A stretch of DNA of 35,293 nt, taken from Akkermansiaceae bacterium (GTDB taxonomy: Bacteria > Verrucomicrobiota > Verrucomicrobiia > Verrucomicrobiales > Akkermansiaceae). Where the stretch lies: positions 1 to 35,293 of the forward strand of contig JALQTQ010000009.1 of assembly GCA_023263995.1 (NCBI GenBank), written 5' to 3'. A model generated the notes under the pieces. That model made no database searches, was not told the origin of the DNA, and saw only the letters and a program-made list of their open reading frames with translations. A program made the position numbers and the translations under genes. Each line of letters starts with the position of its first letter. Positions within the stretch are counted from its first letter, which is position 1. Shown here in pieces: positions 2,159-27,953 of this stretch.

Positions 2159-5100
2159 ATGGCCAGGCTTGGTAACAAGGGACAAGGGCGTCGGGTCGAG
2201 GTGAAGAAGCTTGGCTGGTTGCTGGTTCTTTCGCTCGCAATGACCGGGTGCGGTGGCGACTCGGCAGAGGAGGAAGTTGGGGAGGCTGCGGTCGTCGGAA
2301 AGCAGTCTGATTTCTTGAACGAACTGATCGAACTCAGAGTTCGGAGCCGACGCAGCGATGATCGTTTTTCGGCATCAGACTCGGCAGGAGAAACCATCGT
2401 AGCGTACGAGGCCCTCGACGCCCCGCCGGGAGTGGCCGAGGAAATGGCCACACTCGATCCGGGGGGCGACTGGCAATCGGAGCATCTGAGTGCAGCGGCA
2501 GCGACCCAATTGAAGACCCTCCTCAAGGGGGCGGTCGCCACCGTGGTGGAAGCGGAAATATCGAGCTCGGCCTTGCGCCCCTCCGACCTCCAACGCGAGG
2601 ACCTGGCTGGCGGATACTTGGTCTTTCGACCTGCGGGCGACGACTGGAAGAAGGCCCGAACGAAAGGAATCGAAGCCCTCACCCGGCAGGTCTTGGCACT
2701 TTCCGCGCTTTTCGAGGGGCAAAATGTGGATCCCAAGGTGAAGGTCGTTGGTATCGCGTTGGGAAAGGGGGAATTTGAAGCCACCATGTTGGTCGAATTG
2801 CGTGGCACCGATGCGCAGTTTGCCTCTCCCTTGCAGATCAGCACAACCTGGTCGACGCGCTGGTCACTCGACGAAATCCCCCGCCTGCGCTCCCTCGACC
2901 TTCTTCAATACGAGGAAGTACGACGAAACCAAGGTGTCGGTTTCGGATTCACCGATGTGACCCACCACATTCTCGGAGAAACACCATACTATCGCTCGCA
3001 GATTCTGACGGGAATCGATTTTTGGGCTTCCCGCATCACGCGGCTGGGAGACTTTTCCATGACTGGGCATCACGGCCTCGCGGTCGGTGACGTGAACGGG
3101 GACGACCTCGAGGATCTCTACCTTTGCGACGGTGGAAGCCTTCCCAATCGGCTTTATCTCCAACAAGAGGACGGCACCCTGCGTGACGTCTCCCGCGAGG
3201 CGGGAGTCGATTGGCTGGAGGATTCTCGCTGCGCTCTTTTAGTCGATCTCGACAACGACGGCGACCTCGATTTGGTTGTGGCAACTATCGCGATGATCGC
3301 TTTTGCTGAAAACGACGGGAAGGGACGGTTCGCCGTGCGGGGAGGTCATCCCGGTGCCCGCTATCCCTTTTCCTTGAGTGCCGCCGACTACGACAACGAC
3401 GGCGATCTCGACCTCTACGCTTGCGTCTACAGTGCGGGCGACGGTGCCAGTGGCCGCGGATTTGAAGCGACCTCGCCCCTTCCCTTCAATGAGGCCGAGA
3501 ACGGCGGGCGCAATATTCTGCTCACCAACCTTGGTGACTTTCAGTTTGCCGACGGCACCAAAGTGGCGGGCTTGGACAAAGACAACACGCGGTGGAGCTT
3601 TGCGGCGGCGTGGGAGGACTACGACCGCGACGGCGATCCCGACCTCTATGTGGCCAATGACTTCGGCCGCAACTGCTTTTATCGCAATGATGGCGGGACC
3701 TTCTCGCAAGTCGCCGCAGAACTCGGAGTGGAAGACATGGCCTCGGGCATGTCAGTGGCATGGGGCGACTTCAACCGGGACGGCGCGGCCGATCTTTATG
3801 TGGGAAATATGTTTTCCTCAGCAGGCCGGCGGGTGAGCACTCAGGAAGACTTCACCGCAGCTGGATCCGGAGCTCAGATCTCGGGACTACGTCGCATGGC
3901 CCGCGGCAACACCCTCTTCGCTGGTAGCGAGGAAGGGCTTTTTCGGGATGTCAGTGAGGAGACCCGCACCTACCCCGGTCGCTGGGCCTGGAGCTCCGGA
4001 TTCGTCGACATCAACAACGATGGCTGGGAGGATCTCGCCGTCGCAAATGGCTATCTCACCGGACGCAAGCCCGACGACTTGTGAAGTTTCTTCTGGCGAC
4101 AGGTCGTGTCGCCCCGACAGCAAGCCGATCCCGAAGACTACGGGAATGCCTGGGCCGCTATCATACAACTCGTGCGCGACGGTCACTCATGGAGTGGGAG
4201 TGAGAGAAATTCCCTGTTTCTGAACCGTGGTGGCGGGGAATTCGCGGAGGCCTCGGCGGTGGCTGGTCTCGATTCCAAGGGGGACGGACGAGCTCTGGCA
4301 ATAGTCGATTGGGATCACGATGGCGACCTCGACCTGTGGTATCGGGATCGCACCGCGCCGCGTCTCCGACTGATGCGGAACAACCATGTCACCGAGAAAC
4401 CCGCCCGCGACTTTATGGCATTGAAATTGGAAGGCACCCACTGCAACCGCGATGCCATTGGAGCGGTGGTGGAAGTGACCACCGAGGGAAGTTCGGCACG
4501 CCTCGTGAAGTCGGTTCGGGCCGGCGATCTCTTCCTCTCACAATCAAGTCGTTGGCTCCACTTCGGCCTGCAGGGTGCCGGACCAATCCGGTCGGTCGAA
4601 GTCCTCTGGCCAGGGGGAACCCGCGAGACCTTCGCCGGGGTCGCGGCAGGTGGTCGCTTCTACCTCGTGCAAGGCACTGGACGCGCTCAAAAGGCCAGCC
4701 TTGCGAGCCGTTCGATTGCGGAGCCCCCCTCGGCAGGCCCGGGAGTCACGGTCTCGAAAAAGGCGCGGGTCACTTTACCGGCGCGGATTCCGCTCCCGCC
4801 GCTGGCGTTTCGTAACGCCGCCGGCCAAGGGCAAATGATCCGGGCAAGTGGGAAGCCTCAGCTGGTGCTACTCTGGTCGACCTCGTGCGACCACTGCCGC
4901 CGTGAGCTCAGCCACCTCGTCGGAGCCGCGACTCGTCTGCGGAAGACAGATCTGCAAATCTCGGCTCTTTCCGTCGATGGGAACGCGGCGGTTTCCGATG
5001 CCTACAATTTCATCGACGGCGTCAGGTGGCCCTTTGCATGGGGCCTTGTCGAAAAGGAATCCTTGGACCATCTCGATGCCTTCCAACGTGCCCTATTTGA

Positions 5101-5680
5101 TATCACGGTGCCTCTCGCCGTTCCTTTGGCCTTCCTCTGCGACCCGTCCGGCAATGTCCTCACGATCTACCGGGGAGAATTTGAAGCGGACACTCTCCTC
5201 GCGGATCTCGACCTCCTCTCTGGCGCCGATGTCGAAACCCTCCACCACTTCGCCCCGCCCTTCGCTGGGCGATGGTTCACGAGGCCAGTCGATTCTGCCT
5301 TCGCCTTGGAATTCATGGGCCGCGAGTTCGAAACAAGACTTCCGGAGGCCTCCCTCTTTTACCTCTCGGCCGCCATGGAGAAATCCAGCGGAAACCGTCG
5401 GGCCGCCCTGGCCCATGAGCTGGCGGGCAAACACCACCAGTTTGCCATGAGCTACAAGAAAGCCCGAAACCCGAGCCGTGCCGCCGAGCATTTTGAAAAA
5501 TCGCTCGCGGCCCTGCCAACCGCCGCCACTTTCCTCAACTACGGCACGATGGACGCGAGCTACGGCCGCCTGAGGGAAGCACAGGATCTCCTGGAAAAAG
5601 CCCTGGAACTGGATCCCACCCTCGAACCGGCCCAACAAGCCCTTGCCTTGGTCAAAAAGCTGCGTGCTGAAGGCCGGTAG
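2159..5680 (+). CDS. candidate selenoprotein: FG-GAP/ASPIC-UnbV lipoprotein with redoxin and TPR domains (in-frame TGA at 4082-4084)
   Basis: Read through the TGA this is about 1173 residues, with selenocysteine at position 642. The N-terminus is a lipoprotein signal (LAMTGC, Cys31). GTG 2201 is an alternative start giving a shorter signal with Cys17. Six FG-GAP-like calcium-type blades (for example DLDNDGDLDL and DYDNDGDLDL) precede the TGA. After it the same frame gives SFFWRQVV, a further blade (DWDHDGDLDL), an ASPIC/UnbV domain (FLSQSSRWLHFGL, VEVLWPGGTRETF), a thioredoxin-fold redoxin domain with CDHC at 910-913, and a TPR-like helical end at about 1105-1170. The TGA falls inside a continuous family domain and a SECIS-like hairpin follows it, so I read one gene. 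A gene caller would split it into 2159-4084 and 4106-5680, the second starting inside the hairpin loop. A nonsense mutation or sequencing error remains possible. The exact function is unknown; an extracytoplasmic redox role is inferred. Confidence 0.72.
4082..4113 (+). promoter_or_regulatory. UGA codon plus bacterial SECIS-like stem-loop
   Basis: TGA occupies 4082-4084. GGCGACA (4095-4101) pairs perfectly with TGTCGCC (4107-4113) around the loop GGTCG (4102-4106). Seventeen bases separate the UGA from the loop, and the loop starts with GG. Bacterial SECIS elements are known to lie just downstream of the UGA inside the coding sequence, with a loop about 16-37 bases away and a G among its first two bases. 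The E. coli fdhF loop also contains GGUC. The hairpin codes for WRQVVSP, so protein conservation could also explain part of the sequence. Confidence 0.68.
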
Positions 5681-5690
5681 CAGGCGTTCG

Positions 5691-8249
5691 TTGAAAGATC
5701 ACCCGAAAGTCCCAAGCGCCGCCCGACGTATCTCCCTCGCTTTGCGTCAGGCATTCCGATTGATCTTTTGTTTTACCATTCTCTCCGTTCCGGCCAGAGC
5801 AGACGAGGTGTCGTTCGAGGACCAGGTCCGCCCGTTGCTCGAGAAGCACTGCGTGAAATGTCACGGATCGGCGAAACAAAAGGGCGATTTCCGACTCGAT
5901 ACCCTCGCGACTGACTTCTCGGAAGCCGCGACCGCCTCGGCCTGGCTGGAAGTGCGCGACAACATCAATCTCGGCGAAATGCCACCCGACGGGGAAACGC
6001 CACTTGAGGGCGAAGAAGTGGCCCTGATTTCCGGCTGGATTGCCGGGCAGCAACGCGCCGTCGAACACCGTGCCCTTTCGGCCGGAGACCGGGTCCTCCT
6101 GCGCCGTCTCAATCGCGAAGAATACACCTCGACTGTGGCCGATCTCCTTCACCTGAAATTCCCTCCCGGAGAGAGCCCACTCGATTTTCTCCCGCCTGAT
6201 GGCACCGCCGAAGGATTCAACAAGGTGAGCGCCGCCCTCCTCCTCGACCCCTCTCTGATGCAGCTCTACTACGAGGTGGCACGCGGCATTTCCGAGCGCG
6301 CCCTCGTCGATGGCCCCCCGGCTTTTCCCACTGAAACGATGCGGCTGGAATTCGAGGAGATCGATGAATCGCGCGCCATCGGCTACCTCACCACCCGGCT
6401 GGGCATGCGGCCACTCGACGACGGTCTTCTTTTGATTGATGGATCGACCCGTTCCTTTGGCCTGCTCAACTATCCGGGCGAAAGAGGAAACAACGTCGCG
6501 CCGACCCCGGGATTTTACCGCTTCACCATCCGGGCGGGGGGCATCACCGGTGAGAACGGTCCGGCACCGCGCCTCGCCATCCGGCAGGGACACCCAAAGG
6601 ACGAGATGCGCCTAGTCGCCGAATTTGAGGTGAAAGCTCCGCTGGATCAACCGGCGGAGTATTCCTTCGTGGTGGCGCGCGACGAACTCGGCGGGGAAAT
6701 CAACGTCGAGATCGTTCCTGGAACCAGTCCCTACCAAAGCCAGCGACCAGGCGAGGAATTTCGTCGCTTCATCGAAGAAGTGGGCAAAGAGAAGCAATTT
6801 TCAGAAGTGCTCCGTCTCCGGGGCCGTCAGTTGGCCGAGGGAGCGGGCGGCGACCGTTCAACTCCCGACCCTGAAAAGATCGACCTCGAAAAGCACACCC
6901 GAGTTTTTCTCGACTGGTTAGAAATCGAAGGACCACTCTACGAAGACTGGCCGCCGCTCAGTCATCAGGAGATCTTTTTCAAAGGAGACGGTGCGGAAGA
7001 AACTCTTTCCTATGCCCGCGAGATCTTTTCCCGTTTCACACCGCGGGCCTGGCGGCGACCGGTGCCTGACCAGGAGATCGAACCCATCATCGGGATTGTG
7101 AAAAACGAACTGGCCCACGGGCAGACCTTTCTTGAAGCCATCCGAGTGGGCCTGACGGCGGTGCTCACCTCCCCGAAGTTTCTCTATCTCTTCGAGCCCG
7201 GCGGGGGAAATGCCAGCCGCAGGCTGAACGACTACGAGATTGCCTCGCGTCTCTCCTACTTTCTCTGGAACTCCCTGCCCGATGAGCGTTTGTTTGAGCT
7301 GGCCGCCGCCGGAAAGCTTCGCGATCCCAAAACGCTGGAGGAGGAAACCAACCGCCTCCTCGCTGATGAAAAGAAGTCGCGCTTCGTGGGCAGCTTTGCC
7401 CGACAGTGGCTGCGCACCGACAGCTATCTCGCCTTTGCCCCGAACCAATACCTCTACAAGGAATACACGCCCAAGCTGGGTAAAGCGGCGGTCACCGAAC
7501 CTCTTGTTTTCTTCGACACCGTCCTCCGCAATGACCTCAGTGTCCTCAACTTCATCGATTCAGATTTCGCAATGGTGAATGAAGCGCTCGCCCGCCACTA
7601 CGGCATCTCCGGGGTCGAGGGAGATCACTTCCGCCGGGTGACGCTCGATCCCGTTTCACCCCGGGGCGGTCTGCTCGGAATGATGGGGGTACACCTGGCC
7701 GGGTCCGACGGCCTCCGGACCAAGCCGGTGGCCCGTGCGGTCTTCGTGCGGGAAGTCCTCTTCAATGATCCCCCTGACCCGCCTCCCCCCAACGCCGGGG
7801 AGATCGAACCAAACATCAAGGGAGAACGACTGACCGTGCGGGAGCGACTACAACAGCACCAGGAAATCGAAAGCTGCGCCGGCTGCCATCGCCGCCTCGA
7901 CCCCTACGGTCTTGCTTTGGAAAACTTCAACGTCATCGGAAAATGGCGCGAGCAGCAAGACGGCGAGGATTTCCGGCACCGAGGCCCGCCCATCCTGATC
8001 GACGAAAAATTGCCCAGCGGCGAGGCCTTTCATTCCTACGATGAATTTCGTAATCTTCTTCTTGCCCGGAGCGATCGCTTCCGGAGAGCCCTCGCCGAGA
8101 AGCTCTGGATTTATGCCCTGGGACGACCGGTTGAACCCACCGACGATGGAACCTTGCAAGCCGCGGTCGAGCGGATGAAGGAAGAAGGCGACACCCTCCG
8201 CGCCCTCATTAAAAGCATTGTCACCAGCCCACAGTTTTTGAGCAAATGA
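5691..8249 (+). CDS. DUF1592-type planctomycete cytochrome-domain protein (PSCyt1/DUF1587/1592/1588/1585)
   Basis: With the TTG start at 5691 the protein has 852 residues. An export signal ends near SVPARA, followed by a cytochrome-like heme motif CVKCH at residues 54-58 and the LGEMPP motif usual in this domain. LRRLNREEYTSTVADLL marks DUF1587. The DUF1592 region has SRLSYFLWNSLPDE, and DUF1588 contains a second CAGCH at 729-733 within the RRLDPYGLALENF context. A DUF1585 end (LWIYALGRPVEPTDDG, SIVTSPQF) closes it. The family is exported and its biochemical role is not established; an envelope electron-transfer or polymer-processing role is guessed. No ATG is available near the signal, so TTG 5643, 5691 or 5742 are possible starts. 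It follows the upstream gene after 10 bases and probably shares its transcript. Confidence 0.9.
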   Translation: MKDHPKVPSAARRISLALRQAFRLIFCFTILSVPARADEVSFEDQVRPLLEKHCVKCHGSAKQKGDFRLDTLATDFSEAATASAWLEVRDNINLGEMPPDGETPLEGEEVALISGWIAGQQRAVEHRALSAGDRVLLRRLNREEYTSTVADLLHLKFPPGESPLDFLPPDGTAEGFNKVSAALLLDPSLMQLYYEVARGISERALVDGPPAFPTETMRLEFEEIDESRAIGYLTTRLGMRPLDDGLLLIDGSTRSFGLLNYPGERGNNVAPTPGFYRFTIRAGGITGENGPAPRLAIRQGHPKDEMRLVAEFEVKAPLDQPAEYSFVVARDELGGEINVEIVPGTSPYQSQRPGEEFRRFIEEVGKEKQFSEVLRLRGRQLAEGAGGDRSTPDPEKIDLEKHTRVFLDWLEIEGPLYEDWPPLSHQEIFFKGDGAEETLSYAREIFSRFTPRAWRRPVPDQEIEPIIGIVKNELAHGQTFLEAIRVGLTAVLTSPKFLYLFEPGGGNASRRLNDYEIASRLSYFLWNSLPDERLFELAAAGKLRDPKTLEEETNRLLADEKKSRFVGSFARQWLRTDSYLAFAPNQYLYKEYTPKLGKAAVTEPLVFFDTVLRNDLSVLNFIDSDFAMVNEALARHYGISGVEGDHFRRVTLDPVSPRGGLLGMMGVHLAGSDGLRTKPVARAVFVREVLFNDPPDPPPPNAGEIEPNIKGERLTVRERLQQHQEIESCAGCHRRLDPYGLALENFNVIGKWREQQDGEDFRHRGPPILIDEKLPSGEAFHSYDEFRNLLLARSDRFRRALAEKLWIYALGRPVEPTDDGTLQAAVERMKEEGDTLRALIKSIVTSPQFLSK

Positions 8250-8289: not shown

Positions 8290-9612
8290 ATGAACATTTC
8301 AACCTACCGCCCGCTCAACCGCCGTCGCTTTCTTCGGGGGAGCGGGACGATGCTCGCCCTGCCCTGGCTCGAAGCGATGACTCCGGTCTTTGCACGCACG
8401 ACCAAAGATCAGTCCGGCCCGACGCCTCGCATGGGAATGTTTTATTTCGGAACCGGCATGAACATGCGGCAATTTTACCCCGAGGGATTCGGGAAGGAGG
8501 CCCGCATGTCGCGCATTCTTGAGCCCCTCGAGAAACATCGCGATCGATTCACCGTCCTGTCCAACACCTGGATCGAGCATGGCGGCGGTCACGATGGGGC
8601 CTATCCCTTTGCCACCGCAATCGCCAAAGGAGAAAAACAACAGATCTCACCCGATCAACTGGCTGCCGAGATTCACGGAAAGGAAACCCGCTTTCCCTCG
8701 CTGCAGTTTTCGGTCAAGCGGGGCACTGGCTTTGGCAGCCAGGCCCTCGCCACCATTTCATGGAATCGACAAGGTGTTCCGCTTGCCGCCGAGAATGACC
8801 CCAAGACGATTTTTGACCGACTATTCCGCCCGACCAATGCCGAGCAAAAGGCACGGCAAAGCGACGAGTTCCGGCAGCGGAGCAGCGTTCTCGATGCGGT
8901 CCTCAGCGACGCCAAGACCATGAAGAAGGCTCTCAGTCAAACCGACCGCGACCAGCTCGAGCAATATTTCAACTCCGTCCGCGAAGTCGAAAAAGGTCTC
9001 GAGCGCGAAATCAACTGGTCCGAAAAGGCCAAGCCAAAGCCAGACCTTGCCGACTACGGGAACTACCAGGAAGCGATGAGTCCGGAGGGCAACGGAAAGT
9101 TCATTTACGAAGACTACGCCAAGCTGATGTATGACCTCATCGCCCTCGCTTTTCAGACCGACTCAACGAGGGCCATCACCTACGTCGTCCGCACCGAGCT
9201 GGCCGGCGGGGTCTATCCCGAGTTTGGCGTTTCCAAGGGATACCACTCGCTCAGCCACCACGGCAACGATCCCAAGAACCTGGAGGATCTCGCCTTTGTC
9301 GACACCATCTACATGAAGCACTGGGCCTATTTTCTCGACCGCCTTCAGTCGATTCAGGATGGAGCCGGGACCTTGCTCGATCACACCATGCTCGGCTTTT
9401 CCAGCGGGATGGGCATTGGTCACAGCAAGACCAATCTGCCCACCGTGCTGTCAGGCGGAGGCGGACTCGGCATCAACCATCAGACCCACCTGCAACTGCG
9501 CGAGAATACCCCGCTTTCGTCCATGTGGCAGACGATGATCGAGAAAATGGGAGTCGAGGTCAGTGAAGGATTTCAGGACAGCCGGGGACCCATCAGCGAG
9601 ATCCTGTCATGA
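8290..9612 (+). CDS. DUF1552 protein, Tat-exported
   Basis: This 440-residue protein opens with a twin-arginine signal (NRRRFLRG at residues 10-17, then a hydrophobic stretch ending around VFA). The rest matches the DUF1552 family as I know it: an MGMFYFGTGMN-like start, a central helical DQLEQYFNSVREVE segment, and GYHSLSHHG with LDHTMLGFSSGMG near the C-terminus. DUF1552 proteins are regularly encoded just after DUF1592-type cytochrome proteins, as here, so the two probably act together outside the cytoplasm. Tat export suggests folding, possibly with a metal, before transport. Its stop overlaps the next start (ATGA at 9609-9612), implying coupled translation. The reaction is unknown. Confidence 0.92.
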   Translation: MNISTYRPLNRRRFLRGSGTMLALPWLEAMTPVFARTTKDQSGPTPRMGMFYFGTGMNMRQFYPEGFGKEARMSRILEPLEKHRDRFTVLSNTWIEHGGGHDGAYPFATAIAKGEKQQISPDQLAAEIHGKETRFPSLQFSVKRGTGFGSQALATISWNRQGVPLAAENDPKTIFDRLFRPTNAEQKARQSDEFRQRSSVLDAVLSDAKTMKKALSQTDRDQLEQYFNSVREVEKGLEREINWSEKAKPKPDLADYGNYQEAMSPEGNGKFIYEDYAKLMYDLIALAFQTDSTRAITYVVRTELAGGVYPEFGVSKGYHSLSHHGNDPKNLEDLAFVDTIYMKHWAYFLDRLQSIQDGAGTLLDHTMLGFSSGMGIGHSKTNLPTVLSGGGGLGINHQTHLQLRENTPLSSMWQTMIEKMGVEVSEGFQDSRGPISEILS

Positions 9613-10622
9613 AGCAAATCGTCCTTGCCTGCCTCCTCGGCACCGCTCAGGCCGGTGTGGGTGAAATCACTTTTGTGCCCGTCCCCGCAGGCGAGTTCGT
9701 GCAGGGGTTTCGTCATGACGAACGGCTCTTCGCCAAGGCTCACCCCTACAGCACTTCCCAGAATTTCAAGTCCGAGAAACCGGCACACCGGGTGGCGATT
9801 TCCAAAAAATACGAATTATCCAAGACTGAGGTCACGGTGGGGCAATTTCGCAAATTCGTGGACGCCACCGGCTACCGGACCGACGCGGAGAAAGGACGAG
9901 GGGCCCTGGGCTTTTTCCCGGACCGCAAGAACCACGTGGAACGCTTTGAGGTCAATCCCAAGATCACCTGGCGAGATCCTGGATTTGCCCAGAATGAAAA
10001 CCACCCCGTGGTTTGTGTCAGCTTGCGTGATGCGCTGGCTTTTTGCGAATGGCTATCCCAAAAAGAAGAGCGGATGATCCGGCTTCCGACGGAAGCGGAA
10101 TGGGAACATGCCTGCCGCGCCGGCAGTGAGGGCTGGTATTCTTGGGGCACGGATCCGGACTTGGCCTATCAATTCGCCAACGTCGCCGACGGGGCCTTGG
10201 AGGCGGCCCATCCCGGTACGACCCGCTTCCAGCGAGCCGTCAAGCTGGGGGCGAGCGAAGGCGACCGTGCGGTCTACACTGCGGAGGTGGGCAGCTACCG
10301 GCCCAACGCCCTCGGGCTCCACGACCTGCACGGAAACGTCTGGGAATGGTGCCACGACCGTTATCAGGAAGACCACTACGAGCGCCTCCTCGATGGAGTG
10401 CCGCGGCAGGAGCGCGAAAAATTCTTAGTGACCGACCCCCGCGGACCTGAAACCACCGCCCAGCACCAATACGGAGACTGGCGCGTCCTCCGAGGTGGCT
10501 CCTGGTTCACCGCTCCCGCCTACGTCCGCTCCTCCGCCCGTGCCTATGCCGAAGCCGGCGAATCCAGCTGCTACACCGGGTTCCGCGTGCTCCGGGAAAG
10601 CCTCAAGCTCACCGGTGAATGA
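9609..10622 (+). CDS. SUMF1/formylglycine-generating-enzyme-like domain protein, no catalytic Cys pair
   Basis: This 337-residue protein has a short signal peptide (about residues 1-15) and one SUMF1 (FGE/EgtB/PvdO-like) domain. Typical motifs are FVPVPAGEFVQG, LSKTEVTVGQFRKFV, RLPTEAEWEHACRAG, LGLHDLHGNVWEW, RGGSW and TGFRV. In true formylglycine-generating enzymes the segment after GGS carries two catalytic cysteines. Here that segment reads FTAPAYVRSSARAY and has none. It is therefore unlikely to be the copper-dependent FGE that matures the sulfatases in this window, and more likely has a binding or other modifying role for the operon's exported proteins. It is the last gene of the rightward run and overlaps the DUF1552 gene by four bases. 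Confidence 0.88.
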   Translation: MKQIVLACLLGTAQAGVGEITFVPVPAGEFVQGFRHDERLFAKAHPYSTSQNFKSEKPAHRVAISKKYELSKTEVTVGQFRKFVDATGYRTDAEKGRGALGFFPDRKNHVERFEVNPKITWRDPGFAQNENHPVVCVSLRDALAFCEWLSQKEERMIRLPTEAEWEHACRAGSEGWYSWGTDPDLAYQFANVADGALEAAHPGTTRFQRAVKLGASEGDRAVYTAEVGSYRPNALGLHDLHGNVWEWCHDRYQEDHYERLLDGVPRQEREKFLVTDPRGPETTAQHQYGDWRVLRGGSWFTAPAYVRSSARAYAEAGESSCYTGFRVLRESLKLTGE

Positions 10623-10992: not shown

Positions 10993-13900
10993 CTAGACCG
11001 TCCGCGATTCATTCAGCTCGGCGGGGACTTCCGCCAACGGCGACTGACTCCACTCATCGTCTTCCCAAGTGTGCACCAGCCCGGTCTCGGGATCGACCAC
11101 CATGAGACGGATCCATTCGTTGCGAACGAGCGTTCGGACCGAGGGCACGGCTTCGACCGCCTGCCTGGCATGCTCGACCGGCGCCTCGATGACCGAGATG
11201 AGCCGCACCGGTTCATGGTAGGGCTTGCCATCCTTCAAGACCGTCTGGGCGGGCAGGCCGGTGCGGAGGTCGCTGAGGTTACCCGACATCACCCCGAACT
11301 TGCCCGAAACATTGTGGTAGACCTTGCTCCCGCTACCGAACTGATCGTTATCGACCGCCGAGAAGTAATGTTCCATGTTGATCCACTGGCCCACCACAAG
11401 AGGACCGGTGAGGATGCTTTCAAGTAGCTTCCCCCCGGGGTCAACGCGGTAGTCGTAGGAATGGAGAAAGGCTCGCCCTTCCAGGGTGTCCCGACGGGTC
11501 AGATCACGGCGCCCGATGATGAAGTAGCAGTTTCGGGAAAGGCCCCACTCGGGACGCACCTGCGACCAGTCGTTGGCATGGCGCTGCGCCAGCTCGTAGG
11601 CCTCGAGGGCGGTATCGGGCTGCTTCGCCGACAAAGTGGGCAGGCGTTCCTGGGCCGCAAGGTGGGAAGCCCGGGCAAGTCCCTGGCGCAACCAGTCGAG
11701 ATGGAAGAGCTGGGAAGGCGGAATCTGATCGAGGTCGTGCAGGCGGATTTCGTCAGTGGTGGTGTTGTGCAGGGCAGGCACAAAGCAGACCTCGTCGGGG
11801 ATCTCGATCCCCATCTCAGCGACGCGACGTCGGATCTCGGGCCGGTTGGCCATTTGCGCGATCACGCGCGCGCTGACGAGACCGTGGTTACCGCCGCAGG
11901 CCCCACAATCGAGGGCCGACTCATAGGGGTTGTTTTCGGTGAAGCTGCCGTGTCCAACAAAGAGAACAAAGCGGGAAAAGTTTCGGGTGAGCCCGATGGC
12001 CCTCAGAGCCGTGGCCACAAAATTGGCCTGCTCTTCGGGGGTGAAGCCGATCCGTCCCAGTTGCTCCCGCTGTTGTTCGGCAAACTTGCGGTTGATGCGA
12101 TAATCCACCCGGAGGTGCTCGATCAAGGTGTCGAGCCGGGACGATTCGATCTTGAGGAGGCGGCATAATTCCTCACGGTCAGTACCGATCCCGAGCGCCG
12201 TCTGGCGGAGCCCGAAGACCGCTCGCTCGGGAATCTGGTCGGCGTGATAACCGAGATCGTGCTTGATCGCCTTGATGATGAGGGCGCGCTGAACTGTCAG
12301 GAGAATCGCGTCGGCTTTCTCCGGATCTGGTTTATCGAGGAGCAGGAGGGTTTCCGGCTTTTCGTTGTTGATCAGCTTTTTTCGCCACTTGGCGTATCCC
12401 TTGGGTGCTAGGGTTTTGCCGATCATTTCGAGGCCAAAGAGTAACCCAATGGCCTCCACTGTGACAAAGGGTGAGACCACCGACTCCTTCAGGCCGTACA
12501 TCGCCTTCTCCAAGGTGGTAAGTGTGTCCGGATCCTCGGCGAGAGCATCGGTGGTGATTTCAAGAACGATATTCTCGGGGGTAAGAATGACCGGACAGAG
12601 TGGAATCTCACTCCCTTTCCCGAATTCAATAAAACTGATTGGCACCCCGAAAAAACCGGCCAGGCCATAGGTCTCATAGTCGCCGGTCCCCTCAAGCTGA
12701 CGGCGAATTCTCTCAGACCGGGTGTCGATGCAAAACAAGGCCTGCGCAAATGGGGCATTGTCCCGCTCGGCGACCTCCGTGATCCTGAGTTGATGCCTGA
12801 TCCGGTGCATGGCCTGCTCTTCCATGGCCCGCAGCCAGAACAAACCTTCCTTCTCCTCAGCCCGTATCAAGACGTGCCGCAATCGGCCTAGCCCTTCAAC
12901 GTCAAGACGGGCCAGAGCCTCCTCTTGGCCGATGGCGGAGGCGAGGCTCTGAAGCCGCTCGGCCTCCCGCTTGGCAAGAAACTGGCGCTTGGCCTCCACA
13001 TACTCGGCAAAGGTCTTCTTGATGACCTCTTCTTTGCGACGGCTGAGAGCCACATCCACATCGTGGGCCAACCGCGGCAGGACCTTTCTACGATGAAACT
13101 CATACCTCAGATAAGCCTCCTCGGTGGAGTGATCGATCATCTCTCTGATGGCCTCGACCGAGTTCGCCAGCCCTCTGCGGCCCCGGGCCTCGATGAGAGC
13201 GAGGGCCAAGGTCAGCCGAACGGCCACGAAGTCGACGAGGTCACCGGGAAACTTCTGATTGAAATAATAGTTGTCGGCCTGCTCGCGCCAGCGGATGAAA
13301 CCGGACCACCCATGCAGTTGAGCCAATTCAGCGGTGAAACATCCCGCCCATTGGTCCTCCTTAATCCCAAGGGTGCGGAGCACATGGATAATGGTGCCTT
13401 CGGCGGAGCCATCGGCATCGAGGATTTCCCGAAAGCGTAGCCCCAGGAGGGCAAAGCGGAAATTGCGCTGGGCGAGCTTCTTCCAGGCGTTGAAGAAGCC
13501 TTCCTCACGCAGGGGCATCTTCCAGACCGACTGCCCCTCATCGTAGAAATCGAGGCAGCTTTTGATGACGAGTTCGTTCAGGTCGTCGGTGACTTTACTT
13601 CCGTAGAGGGAATCGATGGCTTCGCCGAGGGGGCGTTCGCCGAGTAGTTCGCGGTGGAGGTAGGCCCGCAGCTTTTTCAAATCGACAGTGCCACCTTCGA
13701 GGGCCCGCCCGGCAAGAACGGCATGGGTGTCGCCCGCTGAAATTAGAACATCGGGCGTAGTGAAAAGAACGGGTTCGTGGTAGAATACCCGCCGTAGCCA
13801 GGCGACCAGATCGAGACCATCGGGCTGGTCGTGCTGGGAGGCGAAGTCCGAGAGGATGGCGTCCAGCTTACTCCGGTCGATCCGTCCTTCCTCGAGATAA

Positions 13901-14106
13901 GATTGATAGGTGGGGCGGGGTAGGAAAGTCCGGGCATGGAAGATCCGGCCTCCCTTGGCGGTGGCCTCGCCGAAGGGCAGATCCTCGAATCCGTGGAGCG
14001 GGTTGTGATGAATGAAGGCGCGCATCGGCCAGAAAAAGGGCACCGGCTTGCCCGCTTCCTCGACCATCGAGCGGACCATCAGTTTTTCTTCAGGTGAGAC
14101 ACTCAT
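10993..14106 (-). CDS. dabA: DabA-type inorganic carbon transporter subunit (DUF2309/UPF0753)
   Basis: This 1037-residue cytoplasmic protein is a full-length DUF2309 member. It begins with the diagnostic FFWPMRAFIHHNPLHGFEDLPF. DabA is a beta-carbonic-anhydrase-like zinc subunit that, with membrane subunit DabB, is proposed to drive one-way CO2 hydration using the cation gradient. The characterised zinc-site set Cys-Asp-His-Cys is recognisable: Cys459 and Asp461 in FCIDTRSERIRRQLE, and His719 and Cys734 in GHGSFTENNPYESALDCGACGG. The spacings (C-x-D, and 15 residues from His to Cys) match the known protein. Its ATG overlaps the stop of the upstream membrane gene (TCAT at 14103-14106 on the plus strand), so translation is probably coupled. 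No RuBisCO or carboxysome gene is nearby, suggesting a supply of bicarbonate for anaplerotic carboxylation. Confidence 0.95.
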   Translation of the reverse strand: MSVSPEEKLMVRSMVEEAGKPVPFFWPMRAFIHHNPLHGFEDLPFGEATAKGGRIFHARTFLPRPTYQSYLEEGRIDRSKLDAILSDFASQHDQPDGLDLVAWLRRVFYHEPVLFTTPDVLISAGDTHAVLAGRALEGGTVDLKKLRAYLHRELLGERPLGEAIDSLYGSKVTDDLNELVIKSCLDFYDEGQSVWKMPLREEGFFNAWKKLAQRNFRFALLGLRFREILDADGSAEGTIIHVLRTLGIKEDQWAGCFTAELAQLHGWSGFIRWREQADNYYFNQKFPGDLVDFVAVRLTLALALIEARGRRGLANSVEAIREMIDHSTEEAYLRYEFHRRKVLPRLAHDVDVALSRRKEEVIKKTFAEYVEAKRQFLAKREAERLQSLASAIGQEEALARLDVEGLGRLRHVLIRAEEKEGLFWLRAMEEQAMHRIRHQLRITEVAERDNAPFAQALFCIDTRSERIRRQLEGTGDYETYGLAGFFGVPISFIEFGKGSEIPLCPVILTPENIVLEITTDALAEDPDTLTTLEKAMYGLKESVVSPFVTVEAIGLLFGLEMIGKTLAPKGYAKWRKKLINNEKPETLLLLDKPDPEKADAILLTVQRALIIKAIKHDLGYHADQIPERAVFGLRQTALGIGTDREELCRLLKIESSRLDTLIEHLRVDYRINRKFAEQQREQLGRIGFTPEEQANFVATALRAIGLTRNFSRFVLFVGHGSFTENNPYESALDCGACGGNHGLVSARVIAQMANRPEIRRRVAEMGIEIPDEVCFVPALHNTTTDEIRLHDLDQIPPSQLFHLDWLRQGLARASHLAAQERLPTLSAKQPDTALEAYELAQRHANDWSQVRPEWGLSRNCYFIIGRRDLTRRDTLEGRAFLHSYDYRVDPGGKLLESILTGPLVVGQWINMEHYFSAVDNDQFGSGSKVYHNVSGKFGVMSGNLSDLRTGLPAQTVLKDGKPYHEPVRLISVIEAPVEHARQAVEAVPSVRTLVRNEWIRLMVVDPETGLVHTWEDDEWSQSPLAEVPAELNESRTV

Positions 14107-14858
14107 GACAAACGATCCATCATAACGATTCCAAAAACAGCGAGACCTCCAAGGAGCAAGCCATAGAGCCAGGCCACCATGATTGGAAGATCCTCCACCT
14201 CCGCGGGGTCATCCTTGCCCACCACGAAGCCTTGGATCAAACGAGCTCCGGCCCAGGCCCACATCATCCAGACCAGACACAAAACGATACTTTCCCAAAG
14301 CCCGGAAACGGCAGCCTGCAGGAAGGCCGCCATCATGGTCGCAAAACCGGGAAAGACCGGGGTGGCCACCACGGCCAGAATGGTGGCGACCAAAAGACCG
14401 CTGAAACGGGGCATGGCATGACCCAAACCATTATAGAGTCCGGCGTAGGACGCACCGAAACGCTTTTCAAGATGGCCGCTGAGCAGAGTGAGGATTCCCA
14501 GCGGAACACTTGACCCGAGAGCCAGCAAACCAACCGTTTCCCAGTCATCGTGAAAACCGGCCACCACCCAGAGGATGGTCCACGAGGACACGGCGAGAAA
14601 GCCGATCCAGTGAATCAATTCGCGGAGCACGATGGCCCGGAAGCCGTAAAGAAGCGAGGTCGCAAGGGCCAGAGCCATTACCCAACCGGGCACTGGCTCG
14701 CCTGCCTGATGAATCAACCACAGCCCGATCTGGGGCCAGGCCAGCAAAACCACCACTCGGGGAAGAGCATGGCGGAGCCCTTCAAACAAGAGATTGAAGA
14801 GCAGGCTCAGGGGGAAGAGCGGAAGAAACAGGGTGGCAGCAAGTATCTTGGGATCCAT
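14103..14858 (-). CDS. small NuoM/Mrp-antiporter-like membrane protein of the dab operon
   Basis: This gene of about 251 residues lies between dabB and dabA. I chose ATG 14858 (MDPKILAATLF), four bases after the dabB stop. ATG 14885 and TTG 14921 are in frame but overlap dabB. The protein is strongly hydrophobic, with about seven membrane segments. Its second half (GLGHAMPRFSGLLVATILA, then VATPVFPGF, then an amphipathic helix and a final pair of helices) resembles the C-terminal half of NuoM/MrpD-type proton-translocating subunits, in which a GL..MPR..L..LA pattern precedes a P..GF turn. It is about half the usual length and lacks an obvious membrane lysine in the middle. It may be an accessory membrane subunit of the DAB complex. 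Confidence 0.75.
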   Translation of the reverse strand: MDPKILAATLFLPLFPLSLLFNLLFEGLRHALPRVVVLLAWPQIGLWLIHQAGEPVPGWVMALALATSLLYGFRAIVLRELIHWIGFLAVSSWTILWVVAGFHDDWETVGLLALGSSVPLGILTLLSGHLEKRFGASYAGLYNGLGHAMPRFSGLLVATILAVVATPVFPGFATMMAAFLQAAVSGLWESIVLCLVWMMWAWAGARLIQGFVVGKDDPAEVEDLPIMVAWLYGLLLGGLAVFGIVMMDRLS

Positions 14859-14862
14859 CAGT

Positions 14863-16542
14863 CTATCGCCATCGGAGTAAAACATTGAGTCGGGCTGCCA
14901 ACTTGAGAGACGAGCGGGCAAACCACGAATAAAGATCCATCAGGTAAAATTCCCGGGAAACCAGGGCGTAGAAACCCAGCCACATCCGGTTGAATTGTTC
15001 CCTCCCCGCCAGGCGGTTTTGCTCCGAATAGTAGGTCAGGATCCACCCCGCCACGATGACCAAACTGGTGAGGATGAGAAGAAAGTCGAACCAGACCACA
15101 TCGATAGTCGCGGTCTGGTAGATTTGTTTGCGAAAGACCTCGTCAGGGTAGAGGAAGTGGTCGAAGGCGTGACTGACCAGGGTGTATCCGACGATCAGCA
15201 CCGTGAAAGAAACCAGCATGGTCCCGATGAGTCGCGGGAAGTTCCGCGCCTCCATGCGGTAGGTGGTGAAGAGAAGCTGGGCTCCGGTGACCCAACCGAA
15301 GAAGAGAAGAATGATCGCGCCCTGTTTTTCGTAGAAGTCCTTGGCCACCAACCAGTGGGCCACAAAAATGATGGCGATGGGCACGGCGATCGTGATAAGG
15401 GCCATTCCGAGCCAGGGCTGGCGGCGCACCGCCGTCTTTCGTTCCACCGCAAAAGTGTAGAGATCCTCCTTCGGTCGACCGTCATGCTCGCGTGCCTTGT
15501 GCATGGCATTGCCCGCTCCGAGGAACAGGGTTCCCTTGAAAAAACCGTGGGCAATCAAGTGGTAAATCGCCAACGAAAAGGCCCCGATCCCGCATTCCAT
15601 CACCATGAATCCCATTTGCCCCATCGTGGAGTAGCCGAGCGCCTTCTTGATGTCGTTCTGAGTCAGCATGAGCACCGAACCGACAATCGCGGTCACGAGT
15701 CCCACGAAGAAAATCAGGTGCAGCACTGTCTCGGTCTGGGCAAAGACGGTGGCGAAACGGTTGATCAGGAACCCCCCGGCATTGACGATCCCGACGTGCA
15801 TCAGGGCCGAAACCGGAGTCGGTCCGCCCATCGTGTAAGGGAGCCAAGTGTGCAGCAGGAACTGCGCTGAACGCGCAAAGGCAGCCAGGGCAATGAGGAA
15901 CCCGGTGATTTCCTCAACGGTGAACCCCCCGTAACGGTATCCACCGGGATTTTCGCGGAGAGCCTCAAAAATCCCCGAGAGCGACCAGGTGCCAAAGGCG
16001 TGATAAAGAATGGCCGCCGCAAAGACCATTGCGAGATCCCCAATGCGGTAGGTGATGAGCGTCCAGAAGGCGTGACGCGACGAAGTAGCGCTCCGCAAAT
16101 TGAAGCTGAGGAGGAAATACAAAACCACTCCCACCAGGTGCCATGCCACCAGCAAGGTGAGCAGATCGCCTGCCGAGCCCATGACCAAAAGAGCGGCCAC
16201 CATGAGATCGAGGAGGATGAAAAACCGTCCGTATCCGGCTTCCTCCGCCATGTAGTTCACCGAGTAAATCCGCACGATCAAACTGATCCCGGTGATCAAG
16301 ACCGCCATGAGGATACCCAAAGGATCGACCGTAAAATAACCCCAGTGAACCCCGATACGCACCTCCGCGCCCTGTCCATCGTGCAGGAGAAGCCCCAACA
16401 AAACCGAGGCGACAACGAACGCCACCCACCCGAAGCGCACCGAAAGATCTGCAGCAGAACGCCCCAGTGACCGGCCAAAAAGCTGGTTCAACAGCGCCGA
16501 CGCCAGTGGCAGGACGGGAAGAAGAAGGACAAGCTGTTCCAT
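14863..16542 (-). CDS. dabB: DabB-type inorganic carbon transporter membrane subunit (NuoL/MrpA-like)
   Basis: From ATG 16542 the protein has 559 residues and is a polytopic proton-translocating NADH-quinone-oxidoreductase/antiporter-family subunit. Seen motifs are RIYSVNYMAEEAGYGRFF, WLPYTMGGPTPVSALMH, MLTQNDIKKALGYSTMGQMG and LIAHGFFKGTLFLGAG, in the usual order for NuoL-type proteins. No other complex I or Mrp genes are nearby, and dabA is two genes downstream, so this is read as DabB, the cation-gradient-coupled partner. A GTG at 16569 would add nine residues. The ATG is preferred because a purine-rich GGCGGGGGTGG lies just upstream on its strand. It is the first gene of a leftward three-gene operon. 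Confidence 0.93.
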   Translation of the reverse strand: MEQLVLLLPVLPLASALLNQLFGRSLGRSAADLSVRFGWVAFVVASVLLGLLLHDGQGAEVRIGVHWGYFTVDPLGILMAVLITGISLIVRIYSVNYMAEEAGYGRFFILLDLMVAALLVMGSAGDLLTLLVAWHLVGVVLYFLLSFNLRSATSSRHAFWTLITYRIGDLAMVFAAAILYHAFGTWSLSGIFEALRENPGGYRYGGFTVEEITGFLIALAAFARSAQFLLHTWLPYTMGGPTPVSALMHVGIVNAGGFLINRFATVFAQTETVLHLIFFVGLVTAIVGSVLMLTQNDIKKALGYSTMGQMGFMVMECGIGAFSLAIYHLIAHGFFKGTLFLGAGNAMHKAREHDGRPKEDLYTFAVERKTAVRRQPWLGMALITIAVPIAIIFVAHWLVAKDFYEKQGAIILLFFGWVTGAQLLFTTYRMEARNFPRLIGTMLVSFTVLIVGYTLVSHAFDHFLYPDEVFRKQIYQTATIDVVWFDFLLILTSLVIVAGWILTYYSEQNRLAGREQFNRMWLGFYALVSREFYLMDLYSWFARSSLKLAARLNVLLRWR

Positions 16543-16822
16543 GTGAATCCACCCCCGCCGGGAATTCACCGCGCGGGTCCCGTAATCCTGCCGTGATTCG
16601 CGACCTAGGTCACTGCAAAAGTCAGACTTTTTTGGCCACCCCGTGTTGCCTCACGAAGGAAGACTCCATCCGCTTTCCGCAAAGCCCTCCCGGCCAAGCC
16701 GTGATCCCTTGGCCCTATACAGCTCGATCAAGGTGTTGGCGTAAAATCCCTGCATCCCGCGAATTGACCCTATCTGCAGATCGGAAATTGACAGCCCCCC
16801 CTCTTGGCGTTCAGATGAACGC

Positions 16823-17833
16823 ATGGCAAAGTGCGACTCTCCAAAATCGAGCAAGGAATCGAACTCTTTGACTTGTGTCGAGATTTGTTCTGGAGCGGGA
16901 GGGCAGGCCCTAGGTTTGGAACGAGCTGGATTCAAGGCCCTTGCGCACCTTGAGTTTGACCATCACGCTTGTGAGACTTTAAGGACAAATCGCCCGAATT
17001 GGCGAGTCATCGAGGGTGATGTGAGGGAATTTTCGGCCGTTGAATACAAGGGAGTTGACCTTTTGGCTGGTGGTGTTCCATGCCCCCCGTTTTCAAAGGC
17101 CGGCAAGCAACTCGGGTCAGATGATGAGCGAGACCTCTTCCCTGAAGCGATTCGCGTGGTTCGTGAATGTCAACCGAAGGCTGTGATGCTGGAAAATGTT
17201 CGTGGTTTTCTCGATGCGGTTTTTATCGATTATCGCCTCAATCTGGAACGGCAGCTCAAACAGCTTGGTTACCGAGCCAGTTGGCATCTGCTAAACGCAT
17301 CCGATTTCGGCGTTCCGCAGCTCCGCCCCCGAGTTGTGGTGGTGGCAATCCGGGAGGACCTGGCAGGAGGATTTCGCCCCCCAATCCCGCTGATCGACGG
17401 AGCCGCTGCTCCGACCGTCGGTGAAGCGCTAGTTGATTTGATGGCTGAAAATGGATGGGAAGGGGCATTTGAGTGGGCAAGTAAAGCCAGCTTAGTTGCG
17501 CCCACCCTAGTAGGCGGTTCGAAAAAGCACGGCGGCGCCGATCTGGGTCCAACCCGAGCCAAACGAGCTTGGGCATCTCTGGGGGTGGAAGCAAAGTCCC
17601 TCGCAAACGAAGCTCCCGAACCTGGCTTTGTCGGCATGCCCAGACTGACCCTACGCATGACTGCCCGCATTCAAGGATTTCCTGATGACTGGCTTTTCGC
17701 TGGCGGGAAGACTTCAGCCTATCGTCAAATCGGGAACGCGTTCCCGCCGTCGGTCGCCGAAGCTGTCGGCAAACGGATCCACGAAGCCATCGGCAGCCTC
17801 GCCGAAAATCGTCGGGTAAGCTCTGCTTCCTGA
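16823..17833 (+). CDS. type II DNA (cytosine-5)-methyltransferase, partner of the NaeI-like endonuclease
   Basis: This 336-residue protein has the ordered motifs of C5-cytosine methyltransferases: motif I for S-adenosylmethionine (EICSGAGGQALGLERAG, about 20-36), motif IV with catalytic Cys87 (GGVPCPPFSKAG), motif VI ENV at 124-126, motif VIII QLRPR at 166-170, and motif X YRQIGNAFPPS from residue 300. A target-recognition segment of roughly 100 residues lies between motifs VIII and IX. It should methylate the site cut by the downstream endonuclease. By family relation to NaeI that site may be GCCGGC, which occurs in this window (for example 4820-4825, 9202-9207, 10119-10124 and 33678-33683). 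The base composition looks less GC-rich than the flanks, fitting horizontal transfer. The start is the only ATG before motif I. Confidence 0.93.
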   Translation: MAKCDSPKSSKESNSLTCVEICSGAGGQALGLERAGFKALAHLEFDHHACETLRTNRPNWRVIEGDVREFSAVEYKGVDLLAGGVPCPPFSKAGKQLGSDDERDLFPEAIRVVRECQPKAVMLENVRGFLDAVFIDYRLNLERQLKQLGYRASWHLLNASDFGVPQLRPRVVVVAIREDLAGGFRPPIPLIDGAAAPTVGEALVDLMAENGWEGAFEWASKASLVAPTLVGGSKKHGGADLGPTRAKRAWASLGVEAKSLANEAPEPGFVGMPRLTLRMTARIQGFPDDWLFAGGKTSAYRQIGNAFPPSVAEAVGKRIHEAIGSLAENRRVSSAS

Positions 17834-17881
17834 ATGGTGTCCCGGGAGCTCCAGAAAGCAGCTCCTCTCCCATCTGAGGAG

Positions 17882-17897
17882 ACAGACGATCGTCTGT
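17882..17897. promoter_or_regulatory. perfect 16-bp palindrome, candidate C-protein operator
   Basis: ACAGACGATCGTCTGT is exactly self-complementary. It sits 10 bases before TTG 17908, and its centre is about 42 bases before the alternative GTG start at 17932. Restriction-modification control proteins bind palindromic operators just upstream of their own genes, so this is a likely autoregulatory site for the regulator and endonuclease genes. Binding is inferred. Confidence 0.6.
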
Positions 17898-17907
17898 AGA
17901 CACACGC

Positions 17908-18183
17908 TTGTCGCCAGCATTGATTGGCGGGGTGCGAGGTGGCGATATCGGAAAGTGTTTTGGGACGATCTTACGTCGACACCGTTTGTTGAAAGGTTTG
18001 ACCCAAGAAGGATTGGCTGACCTAGCGAATCTCCATCCGACCTACGTTGGGCTGATTGAACGAGGCGCAAAGAATCCTACCCTGCAGGTTTGCCAGCAAC
18101 TTTCCTGCGGGCTGGACTGCTCCCTTTCCGACTTGATCGTGGAAGCCGAAGAACTTGCGCTTGAGAAGGCGGAACGGTCATGA
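17908..18183 (+). CDS. C-protein-like XRE-family transcriptional regulator of the restriction-modification system
   Basis: This 91-residue protein (83 if GTG 17932 is the start) consists almost entirely of one HTH_3/XRE helix-turn-helix: FGTILRRHRLLKGLTQEGLA, then LHPTYVGLIERGAKNPTL. The TY-GLIERG-KNP pattern is typical of restriction-modification controller (C) proteins, which are small dimers that time expression so that methylation precedes cleavage. Its TGA overlaps the endonuclease ATG (ATGA at 18180-18183), the usual arrangement for coupled C and R genes. A perfect palindrome lies just upstream. The true start is uncertain because both candidates are non-ATG codons without a strong ribosome binding site. 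Confidence 0.85.
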   Translation: MSPALIGGVRGGDIGKCFGTILRRHRLLKGLTQEGLADLANLHPTYVGLIERGAKNPTLQVCQQLSCGLDCSLSDLIVEAEELALEKAERS

Positions 18184-19088
18184 GCACAGTTGACGATCCC
18201 GAAATTCAAGAAGTTGCCGCCTTTATCCAAGCGGCAGATCCAGCTGGGACCCGCTTTGCGAGAGTCTTTCGCGAAACAATCGACCAACTTTACGATGGTC
18301 AACGCACCGGCCGCTATCGCTGGGATCAACTCTTGAAAACAGAAAAGACTCACTGCGGGACCTTGGTTGAAATTAACCTGCAACGTGAATTTCAATTCGA
18401 TGACGGGAAAACCATGGATTTCTTGATCAATGAAGTGGAAGTCGATTGCAAATACTCCCAGACCCATGGGAGCTGGATGATCCCCCCCGAAGCGATCGGT
18501 CATCTGTGCCTGTTGACTTGGGCCGAAGACAGCTCAGATCCAAAATGGAGTGTCGGACTGGTGAGAGTTACCAATGAAATCCTCACCCTTGGCGGAAACC
18601 GCGACCGAAAAAGATCAATCAGCAAAGCGGGACGAGAGTCAATTTATTGGTTGTGGGATCATCACCCTTTTCCAGGCAACGTTCTTCTAGAATCGGACCA
18701 AAGTGTCGTCGCTCAAATCTTTCAACCAAAATCGGGAACAGAGCGGATCAACAGGCTCTTCCGGCTGATTCAAGAAAGAATCATCAGCCGGAATGTCGTT
18801 GCAACCGTCAATCAAGGAAAGGATTACATGAAGCGAGTCAGGGGAAACGGAGGCGCTCGCACATTCCTAAAAACCGAGGGAATCCTGATTCTGGGACAGT
18901 TTCAATCGCACGTCAAAGTCGCTCATGCGCTCGGACTGCCGGAACCAAAAGATGGCGACTCAATTTCTGTCAGAGTCGTTCCAGCCAATGGTCCCGGACC
19001 GGGTATTGCGAACATTGCCGGAAAATTTTGGAGGAAGGCTCACCCGACTGACCCTGTCGTCCAAGCTCCTGATCTACCGGTGAAATAA
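18180..19088 (+). CDS. NaeI-family type II (IIE) restriction endonuclease
   Basis: This 302-residue protein is collinear with NaeI as I remember it, with a constant offset of six residues. The catalytic set Glu64, Asp80, Asp89 and Lys91 (VEIN, MDF, VDCK) corresponds to NaeI Glu70, Asp86, Asp95 and Lys97. Leu37 in QLYDGQRTGRY corresponds to Leu43, the residue where a DNA ligase would have its nucleotide-binding lysine. The later RNGGAR and ILGQFQSH segments fit the C-terminal DNA-binding (Topo-type) domain, which must bind a second site before cleavage. The protein appears complete and all catalytic residues are present. The recognition site is probably GCCGGC by homology, but this is not proven. 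It ends five bases before the convergent propeller gene. Confidence 0.92.
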   Translation: MSTVDDPEIQEVAAFIQAADPAGTRFARVFRETIDQLYDGQRTGRYRWDQLLKTEKTHCGTLVEINLQREFQFDDGKTMDFLINEVEVDCKYSQTHGSWMIPPEAIGHLCLLTWAEDSSDPKWSVGLVRVTNEILTLGGNRDRKRSISKAGRESIYWLWDHHPFPGNVLLESDQSVVAQIFQPKSGTERINRLFRLIQERIISRNVVATVNQGKDYMKRVRGNGGARTFLKTEGILILGQFQSHVKVAHALGLPEPKDGDSISVRVVPANGPGPGIANIAGKFWRKAHPTDPVVQAPDLPVK

Positions 19089-26502: not shown

Positions 26503-27908
26503 GATCCATGCTCACGCGTCGAAATTTCCTCCGCAACTTGGGAGCCAGTTCCCTCGCCCTCTCTCCCTTCTTCCAGCACCTCCGTGCCGAAGCGTCCGGA
26601 AAAGGCCACCCCCCCAAACGCTTCGTCTTCGTGATGCGAGGTAATGGCCTGCGACCTTACGGCGTGGTCCCCGAAGGATGCGAGGAATTCGGTCATGACC
26701 GCCTCAAACTCGACCGCTTAGTCGACCGCCCTCTCGCCGATCTGAAGCTCAACCCGAGCATGTGTTCGCTGGAACCCTTCAAGGACCGCCTCACCGTCAT
26801 TCAGGGGCTCTCGAGCAAAGTTTGCAAAGGTCCCCACGGGGGGCACTTCGGAGTCCTCGGAGCTTACACCTCGGGCGACCACGCTCCACCGCGCCAGGAA
26901 ACCCTCGACGCCACCATCGCCAAAAAATTCCCCGGTATCTTTCCTCACCTTGCCTTCCACATCGGGACCCGGTCCGACGAACTCTTTCGCTACCTTGACA
27001 TCTCGGCCCAGGGCAAGAACACCCGGACCCCGGCCTACGCCTCGGCGATGCTGGCCTACAAAGAAATCTTCGGCACCGTCATGACCGGGGACGATGCCCG
27101 CATCGAGACGCTGGCCCAGCGCAACCTCATGGACTTCCTCGTCGATGACGTGAAGCGCGCCCGCAAATCACTGACATCAAATGAAAAGGAAAAGCTCGAT
27201 CATTACCTCACCGGCTTCGAAGCCCTGCGCGACCGACAGGTCAAGCTGAACACGATGGGCGATTCACTTGCCAAGATGGCTCCCGCGCTCGATGACAAAT
27301 TCACCTCGGAAATCGAGACCCATCGTCTTGAGGCCCACTTCGACCTGGCAGCCTCGGCTCTCGTGACCGGGCTCACCAATGTCGTCACCATCCGCGCCGA
27401 CGAACTGGACGTGCGCTACCAAGGTTTCGACCACCCCCGCATGAAGGAAATCTCGGTGCACGACATCGGGCACACCGCCGATGTCGAAGGCAACGAGGAT
27501 CGCTTCGAGTCCAACTGGCAAGAGGGACGGGAAATGCGCGCACTGATCCGGACTTATCAGATGGAATTGATCGCCGGGCTGGCCGGGAAACTCGACGCCA
27601 TGCCGGAAGGCGACGGCACGATGCTCGACAACACTGTGATCGTGTTCCTCAGCGATGCGGGATCCCAGCACCACACCGGTTACGAGAATATGCCATTGAT
27701 CGTCCTCGGCAACCTCGACGGGGCCTTCAAGACCGGCCGATACCTGCACTACCCGACATACAACCAGAGTGGTCACCGTATTCTCGCCAACTTCCTGATG
27801 AGCTTGCAACACGGAGCCGGAATGCCCGTCGACCAATACGGCGACCGCGACCTCGGCCTCAGCGAAGCCATCGACCAAAAAGGTCCGCTCGCTGAGTGGA
27901 TGGCCTGA
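26499..27908 (+). CDS. DUF1552 protein, Tat-exported
   Basis: This 469-residue protein starts with a twin-arginine signal (TRRNFLRNLGAS, then a hydrophobic stretch). The body follows the DUF1552 family: KRFVFVMRGNGLRP near the start, a helical EKEKLDHYLTGFEALRDRQ segment, HDIGHTAD, and DNTVIVFLSDAGSQHH towards the end. It pairs with the DUF1592-type protein directly upstream, and their coding regions overlap by four bases. It appears to be a diverged paralogue of the DUF1552 protein at 8290-9612. The two share gene order rather than close sequence similarity. The function is unknown, but Tat export and pairing with a heme protein suggest a folded extracytoplasmic complex. Confidence 0.9.
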   Translation: MRSMLTRRNFLRNLGASSLALSPFFQHLRAEASGKGHPPKRFVFVMRGNGLRPYGVVPEGCEEFGHDRLKLDRLVDRPLADLKLNPSMCSLEPFKDRLTVIQGLSSKVCKGPHGGHFGVLGAYTSGDHAPPRQETLDATIAKKFPGIFPHLAFHIGTRSDELFRYLDISAQGKNTRTPAYASAMLAYKEIFGTVMTGDDARIETLAQRNLMDFLVDDVKRARKSLTSNEKEKLDHYLTGFEALRDRQVKLNTMGDSLAKMAPALDDKFTSEIETHRLEAHFDLAASALVTGLTNVVTIRADELDVRYQGFDHPRMKEISVHDIGHTADVEGNEDRFESNWQEGREMRALIRTYQMELIAGLAGKLDAMPEGDGTMLDNTVIVFLSDAGSQHHTGYENMPLIVLGNLDGAFKTGRYLHYPTYNQSGHRILANFLMSLQHGAGMPVDQYGDRDLGLSEAIDQKGPLAEWMA

Positions 27909-27953
27909 GGGCGGTGATCGACCATCGCGAAAGAAATCCAGCCCGCATTCGGT

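Follow-up and report, generated by a model that had tools for sequence, protein, structure and literature searches.

The gene at positions 2159-5680 of the window (the whole 35,293-nucleotide stretch analysed, from an Akkermansiaceae bacterium) almost certainly encodes a genuine selenoprotein, in which the UGA at 4082-4084 is inferred to be decoded as selenocysteine (Sec) at residue 642. There is no protein-level evidence; the inference rests on sequence comparison and is strongly supported by several independent comparative tests. An earlier note on this DNA had proposed the same reading of the TGA, and the proposal now draws strong support from a homologue column that holds TGA or Cys, from a covarying hairpin downstream and from selA, selB and selD in the source genome. 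Each of the three refuting conditions set in that note was checked, and none applied. That note had also described a single TGA interrupting 2159-5680, after which the frame resumes for 531 codons, and the stop count bears this out: TGA 4082-4084 (residue 642 of 1173) is the only internal stop on the forward strand frame, while the remaining five frames contain 12-31 stops each across the same interval. The gene and its elements are as follows.

2159..5680, + strand: complete selenoprotein gene (1173 residues, Sec642), ending in TAG
2159..2251, + strand: signal/lipobox-like N-terminal segment (...LLVLSLAMTGC, Cys31), read from the translation; predicted export
3062..4393 (approximate limits), + strand: CRTAC1-like FG-GAP beta-propeller (Pfam FG-GAP_3 1e-40, FG-GAP 4e-18)
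4082..4084, + strand: UGA, putatively decoded as selenocysteine 642, in the motif DDL-U-SFFWRQVV at the predicted N-terminus of a short helix
4095..4113, + strand: putative SECIS hairpin, conserved core 4096-4101/4107-4112, apical loop GGUCG at 4102-4106
4454..4651, + strand: ASPIC/UnbV domain (PF07593), E 7e-15, above the gathering score
4844..5158, + strand: TlpA/ResA-like thioredoxin domain (AhpC-TSA below the Pfam cut-off for the single sequence; family profile to TlpA 1jfu, 1.6e-16; Foldseek ResA/TlpA)
4886..4897, + strand: CXXC (Cys910-Asp-His-Cys913) of the thioredoxin domain
5432..5647, + strand: C-terminal TPR-like repeats (Pfam TPR models, below cut-off)

Judged from these profiles and from a predicted structure, the product is a CRTAC1-type protein that combines an FG-GAP propeller and an ASPIC/UnbV domain, both above their Pfam cut-offs, with a fused TlpA-like thioredoxin domain. 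An AlphaFold2 model built on the family alignment (pLDDT 92.5, pTM 0.93) has murine CRTAC1 (9etn) as its best PDB match (E 2.5e-24), and its C-terminal part matches ResA/TlpA in Foldseek. The likeness to the CRTAC1/ASPIC-UnbV FG-GAP proteins (PF13517, PF07593) thus covers the propeller and the ASPIC/UnbV domain in sequence (4.4e-32) as in fold, but the murine protein has no counterpart of the Sec/Cys loop in the alignment and no TlpA-like domain. With the TlpA/ResA reductases (1jfu, 1st9) the product shares the C-terminal CXXC thioredoxin-fold domain; here, however, this domain is fused behind a Sec-containing propeller, and the Sec lies outside it. Among Sec-clade members that span the site, Cys910 is retained in 133/134 and Cys913 in 129/134. 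The domain is found in the Sec clade only and is missing from the Cys clade; several Sec matches of a third subfamily (WRTVVR and alike) stop short of it. Export of the product is predicted from the lipobox-like N-terminus and was not computed.

The read-through protein was searched against 58 related genomes, in which nearly every full-length example among the long matches carries exactly one TGA. The earlier note had suggested aligning homologues at this codon. In the joint alignment, column 642 is TGA (152) or Cys (30) in all 182 homologues that possess the surrounding loop; six further aligned sequences lack the loop motif. GTDB contigs were also scanned with a DNA pattern that accepted TGA, TGT or TGC at the codon and was blind to other residues; this contributed additional TGA members from Verrucomicrobiota, Planctomycetota and Acidobacteriota and revealed Cys members additionally in bins of gammaproteobacteria, deltaproteobacteria and myxococci. 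Because the scan sees only these three codons, the unbiased evidence consists of the members found by homology and the paralogues caught in passing. In the homology-only matches, all loop-bearing members examined have TGA, down to about 30% identity, with the one exception of a Cys-containing locus (L049); the paralogues of about 30% identity recovered by homology alone share the Sec column. Profile-profile alignment (hhalign) independently places the Sec on a Cys. Coding sequence is conserved on both sides of the UGA, and identity stays high beyond it, in the propeller, the UnbV domain and the CXXC domain. The nearest named homologues suggest a member of the Verrucomicrobiales close to Roseibacillus/Akkermansiaceae.

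The Cys-type bacterial CRTAC1 homologues (KDY-C-TxFW[CR]HD) form a sister family with Cys exactly at the Sec column, but without Sec, a SECIS-like hairpin or a fused CXXC. On the tree a single change separates the Sec set from the Cys set; the Sec side is only weakly supported (65). Two loci, L117, in an Acidobacteria bin, and L154, carry Cys-type members as tandem pairs. In divergent paralogues that lack the FW motif the column is occupied by other residues; the source genome has at least one such FG-GAP paralogue, in which the aligned position is Ser (L243; G000:C111:27244-28917).

The earlier note had placed a perfect 7-bp stem 17 bases past the TGA. The stem (4095-4101 with 4107-4113) and its loop GGTCG (4102-4106) are present, with 7 bp and -12 kcal/mol for 27 nt, but the 17 nt lead to the apical loop and the stem begins after 10 nt; nor is the whole stem conserved, since the inner six pairs are kept while the outermost, 4095-4113, persists in only 33/109 relatives. 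The published bSECIS model demands a stem of 4-16 bp, a loop of 3-9 nt with G within its first two positions, a spacing of 16-37 nt and an MFE <= -7.5 (PMC13188914). It is satisfied by the present hairpin (7 bp, 5-nt loop, GG, 17 nt, -12 kcal/mol) and by 137/152 Sec members, in agreement with the note's expectation. Taken as a single sequence, the 27-nt hairpin is equalled by 8/200 shuffles, and a 71-nt window around it folds no better than shuffles (z -0.14), so that the hairpin is unconvincing on its own. An Rfam search of the hairpin region returned nothing but a sub-threshold chance match to Prion_pknot.

Comparative evidence carries the inferred hairpin far beyond chance. In a gap-free alignment of 109 members, comprising 42 bases from the TGA onward, the six inner pairs are retained in 94-100% of sequences and compensatory changes, for which the note had suggested a covariance check, are present across the family; pair 4099-4109 occurs as G-U, A-U, G-C, C-G, U-A and U-G. 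Hairpin cells are paired in 86.6% of cases, against 22-75% in slid registers, and double-changed cells number 36 against 6.9 in shuffled alignments (0/500 shuffles). The covariation score, like the paired cells and the double changes, is higher than in any of the 500 shuffles or any slid register. Constraint on the amino acids does not account for the hairpin, because the full inner stem is found in 85% of Sec members, compared with 2.6% expected under a family codon-usage null and 60% when synonymous codons were shuffled between sequences (0/300). The hairpin is missing from the Cys homologues, and folding gave -2.9 kcal/mol for Cys forms versus -10.3 kcal/mol for Sec forms. In the third subfamily the hairpin is retained with its stem displaced by one base, TGGCGCACGGTCGTGCGC (register read by eye). 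One locus of the source genome (L200; G000:C542:5500-11500) holds two third-subfamily Sec genes tail to tail, each with a hairpin in the shifted register.

The source genome contains selA, selB and selD, all over cut-off, and its selD bears a UGA of its own in the context SCAG-U-ASK (GUxxK). The complete selABCD set that the note had looked to was recovered only in part: tRNA-Sec (selC) was not found in the source genome, an assembly of 562 contigs that is 81% complete, but it is present, with anticodon TCA, in the near relatives G002, G009 and G017. Seven tRNA-Sec candidates in the source genome were rejected as ordinary tRNAs. Across the 58 genomes, a SECIS covariance model has matches in 25/37 selA-positive relatives versus 0/21 selA-negative ones (Fisher P=1.3e-7, relatedness uncorrected). 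When 388 genomes spread across the phylum were sampled, only two gave matches, one of them the source genome and both selA-positive, and the family is therefore patchy. Where it occurs it is often multicopy: the source genome has at least seven TGA members alongside several TGA-free, more distant FG-GAP paralogues, and the SECIS model alone finds up to 12 copies in one relative, a count that mostly omits the third subfamily. The family ranges over Verrucomicrobiota, Planctomycetota and Acidobacteriota. Weak SECIS-model matches also lie outside the propeller-family hits listed, at G004:C77:281-323 and G006:C19:281-323, and might mark other selenoprotein genes.

Could the TGA simply end translation? 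A mechanical ORF with a GTG start does exist at 4106-5680, and standard annotation would divide the gene at the TGA, just as the earlier note had foreseen, so that a second protein made from GTG 4106, or a gene disabled by mutation or sequencing error, has to be weighed. The break would land within the propeller, however, identity stays high across it as far as the CXXC domain, and the identical TGA column, with Cys as its alternative, is found in three phyla. The recurrence of the TGA in about 150 homologous genes, drawn from many assemblies, rules out a sequencing error, which the note had named as a possible refutation. We regard two genes or a pseudogene as highly improbable. The open frame through the UGA would also be accommodated if UGA were read genome-wide as an ordinary amino acid, or leaked through without selenium, but UGA is the normal terminator for 9/18 genes in the window, this gene requires no other UGA, and both the hairpin and the link to selA would be left unexplained; we give this reading practically no credence. 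Code reassignment, a pseudogene and two separate genes were accordingly rejected on the recurrent TGA/Cys column, the UGA stops, the hairpin and the selA link, which leaves decoding as Sec as the preferred reading.

That SelB and tRNA-Sec read UGA 4082-4084 as Sec 642 under the guidance of the downstream SECIS hairpin is strongly supported; what the Sec then does is much less certain. In the proposed mechanism the residue, which opens helix 442-448 of the AlphaFold2 model and is inferred to lie in an inter-blade loop of the propeller, would act as a redox nucleophile; a helix N-terminus in thiol enzymes favours a reactive nucleophile. It would react with an extracytoplasmic substrate, whose identity is unknown, and would then be reduced again by the fused CXXC domain. 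This redox cycle, with Sec recycled by the CXXC domain, is inferred without any Sec-CXXC distance, and we hold it only tentatively, at somewhat short of even chances. Against a role for the CXXC speak the Cys clade, which lacks the domain, and the third-subfamily Sec matches that end before it. The main rival accepts the Sec but makes it a metal ligand or structural residue of the propeller in place of a thiol-type redox centre, with Met531 and Met551, invariant in Sec and Cys sets alike, as possible co-ligands. Sec serves as a metal ligand in formate dehydrogenase and [NiFeSe] hydrogenase (PMC13188914), which provides a precedent. The fused CXXC domain nevertheless tracks the Sec clade, and no His/Cys cluster is prominent among the invariant residues of that clade (no distances were available), so we consider a ligand or structural role unlikely, if a serious possibility. 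The redox cycle remains our working proposal.

The genes around the Sec gene include a sulfatase gene upstream and three genes downstream, the first of which may belong to the same operon.

5643..8249, + strand: PSD/PSCyt neighbour (DUF1592/1588/1585/1595/1587 and planctomycete cytochrome c); possible operon
8290..9612, + strand: DUF1552 (HXXSHH) neighbour
9609..10622, + strand: formylglycine-generating-enzyme-like (FGE-like) neighbour

PSD and DUF1552 genes are same-strand neighbours of the Sec gene in the close Roseibacillus homologues L051 and L125; in L059 only DUF1552 is seen. Such neighbours are rare family-wide and most Sec members lack them, a frequency that is a lower bound because the loci are short. 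A substrate drawn from the gene neighbourhood was rejected since the PSD/DUF1552 link is limited to close homologues, and the context thus names none. Elsewhere in the window, 10993-16569 encodes DabA and a proton-antiporter-M protein, a probable inorganic-carbon transporter, and 16823-19088 a restriction-modification pair (C-5 cytosine methylase and NaeI-type endonuclease). A second cluster at 24031-34463 contains planctomycete-type cytochrome/PSD, DUF1552 and DUF1549/1553 genes together with a pair of DUF1501 genes that flank a squalene-hopene-cyclase-like protein.

In 2026, 119 prokaryotic selenoprotein (sub)families were catalogued (PMC13188914). These, for example the Prx-like, TlpA-like UGC protein, UshA-like and MtrB/PioB-like families, resemble the present one in UGA/SECIS/SelB decoding, and several are exported; FG-GAP, UnbV and CRTAC are absent from the catalogue. 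No selenoprotein model in NCBIfam 20.0 (June 2026) matches the protein. The earlier note's remark that FG-GAP/UnbV proteins are not known as an established selenoprotein family agrees with both sources. The family goes unmentioned in the deep-Sep paper, and no relevant open-access literature linking selenoprotein or selenocysteine with FG-GAP, ASPIC or CRTAC1 was found; a supplement or a subscription-only paper may contain an earlier mention. We therefore describe the FG-GAP/UnbV selenoproteins as a new selenoprotein family within the known CRTAC1-like proteins, without excluding a prior prediction.

Standard annotation would split each such gene, and the putative active residue of a widespread family therefore sits at a false stop. 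The CRTAC1/UnbV superfamily, of which little is known biochemically, gains in this Sec or Cys a candidate active residue open to mutational testing, and a Sec site in a propeller fold is added to the thioredoxin-like folds dominant among known selenoproteins. The findings also show that lineages of Verrucomicrobiota, Planctomycetota and Acidobacteriota make heavy use of selenium. We see an even chance that exported propeller selenoproteins form a large, ancient, lineage-expanded system common to these three phyla, with up to a dozen or so copies per genome, or more, in which the propeller Sec and the thioredoxin CXXC make up an internal redox relay that serves an extracytoplasmic chemistry not yet discovered. 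If so, they would be among the more numerous uncharacterised selenoprotein families.
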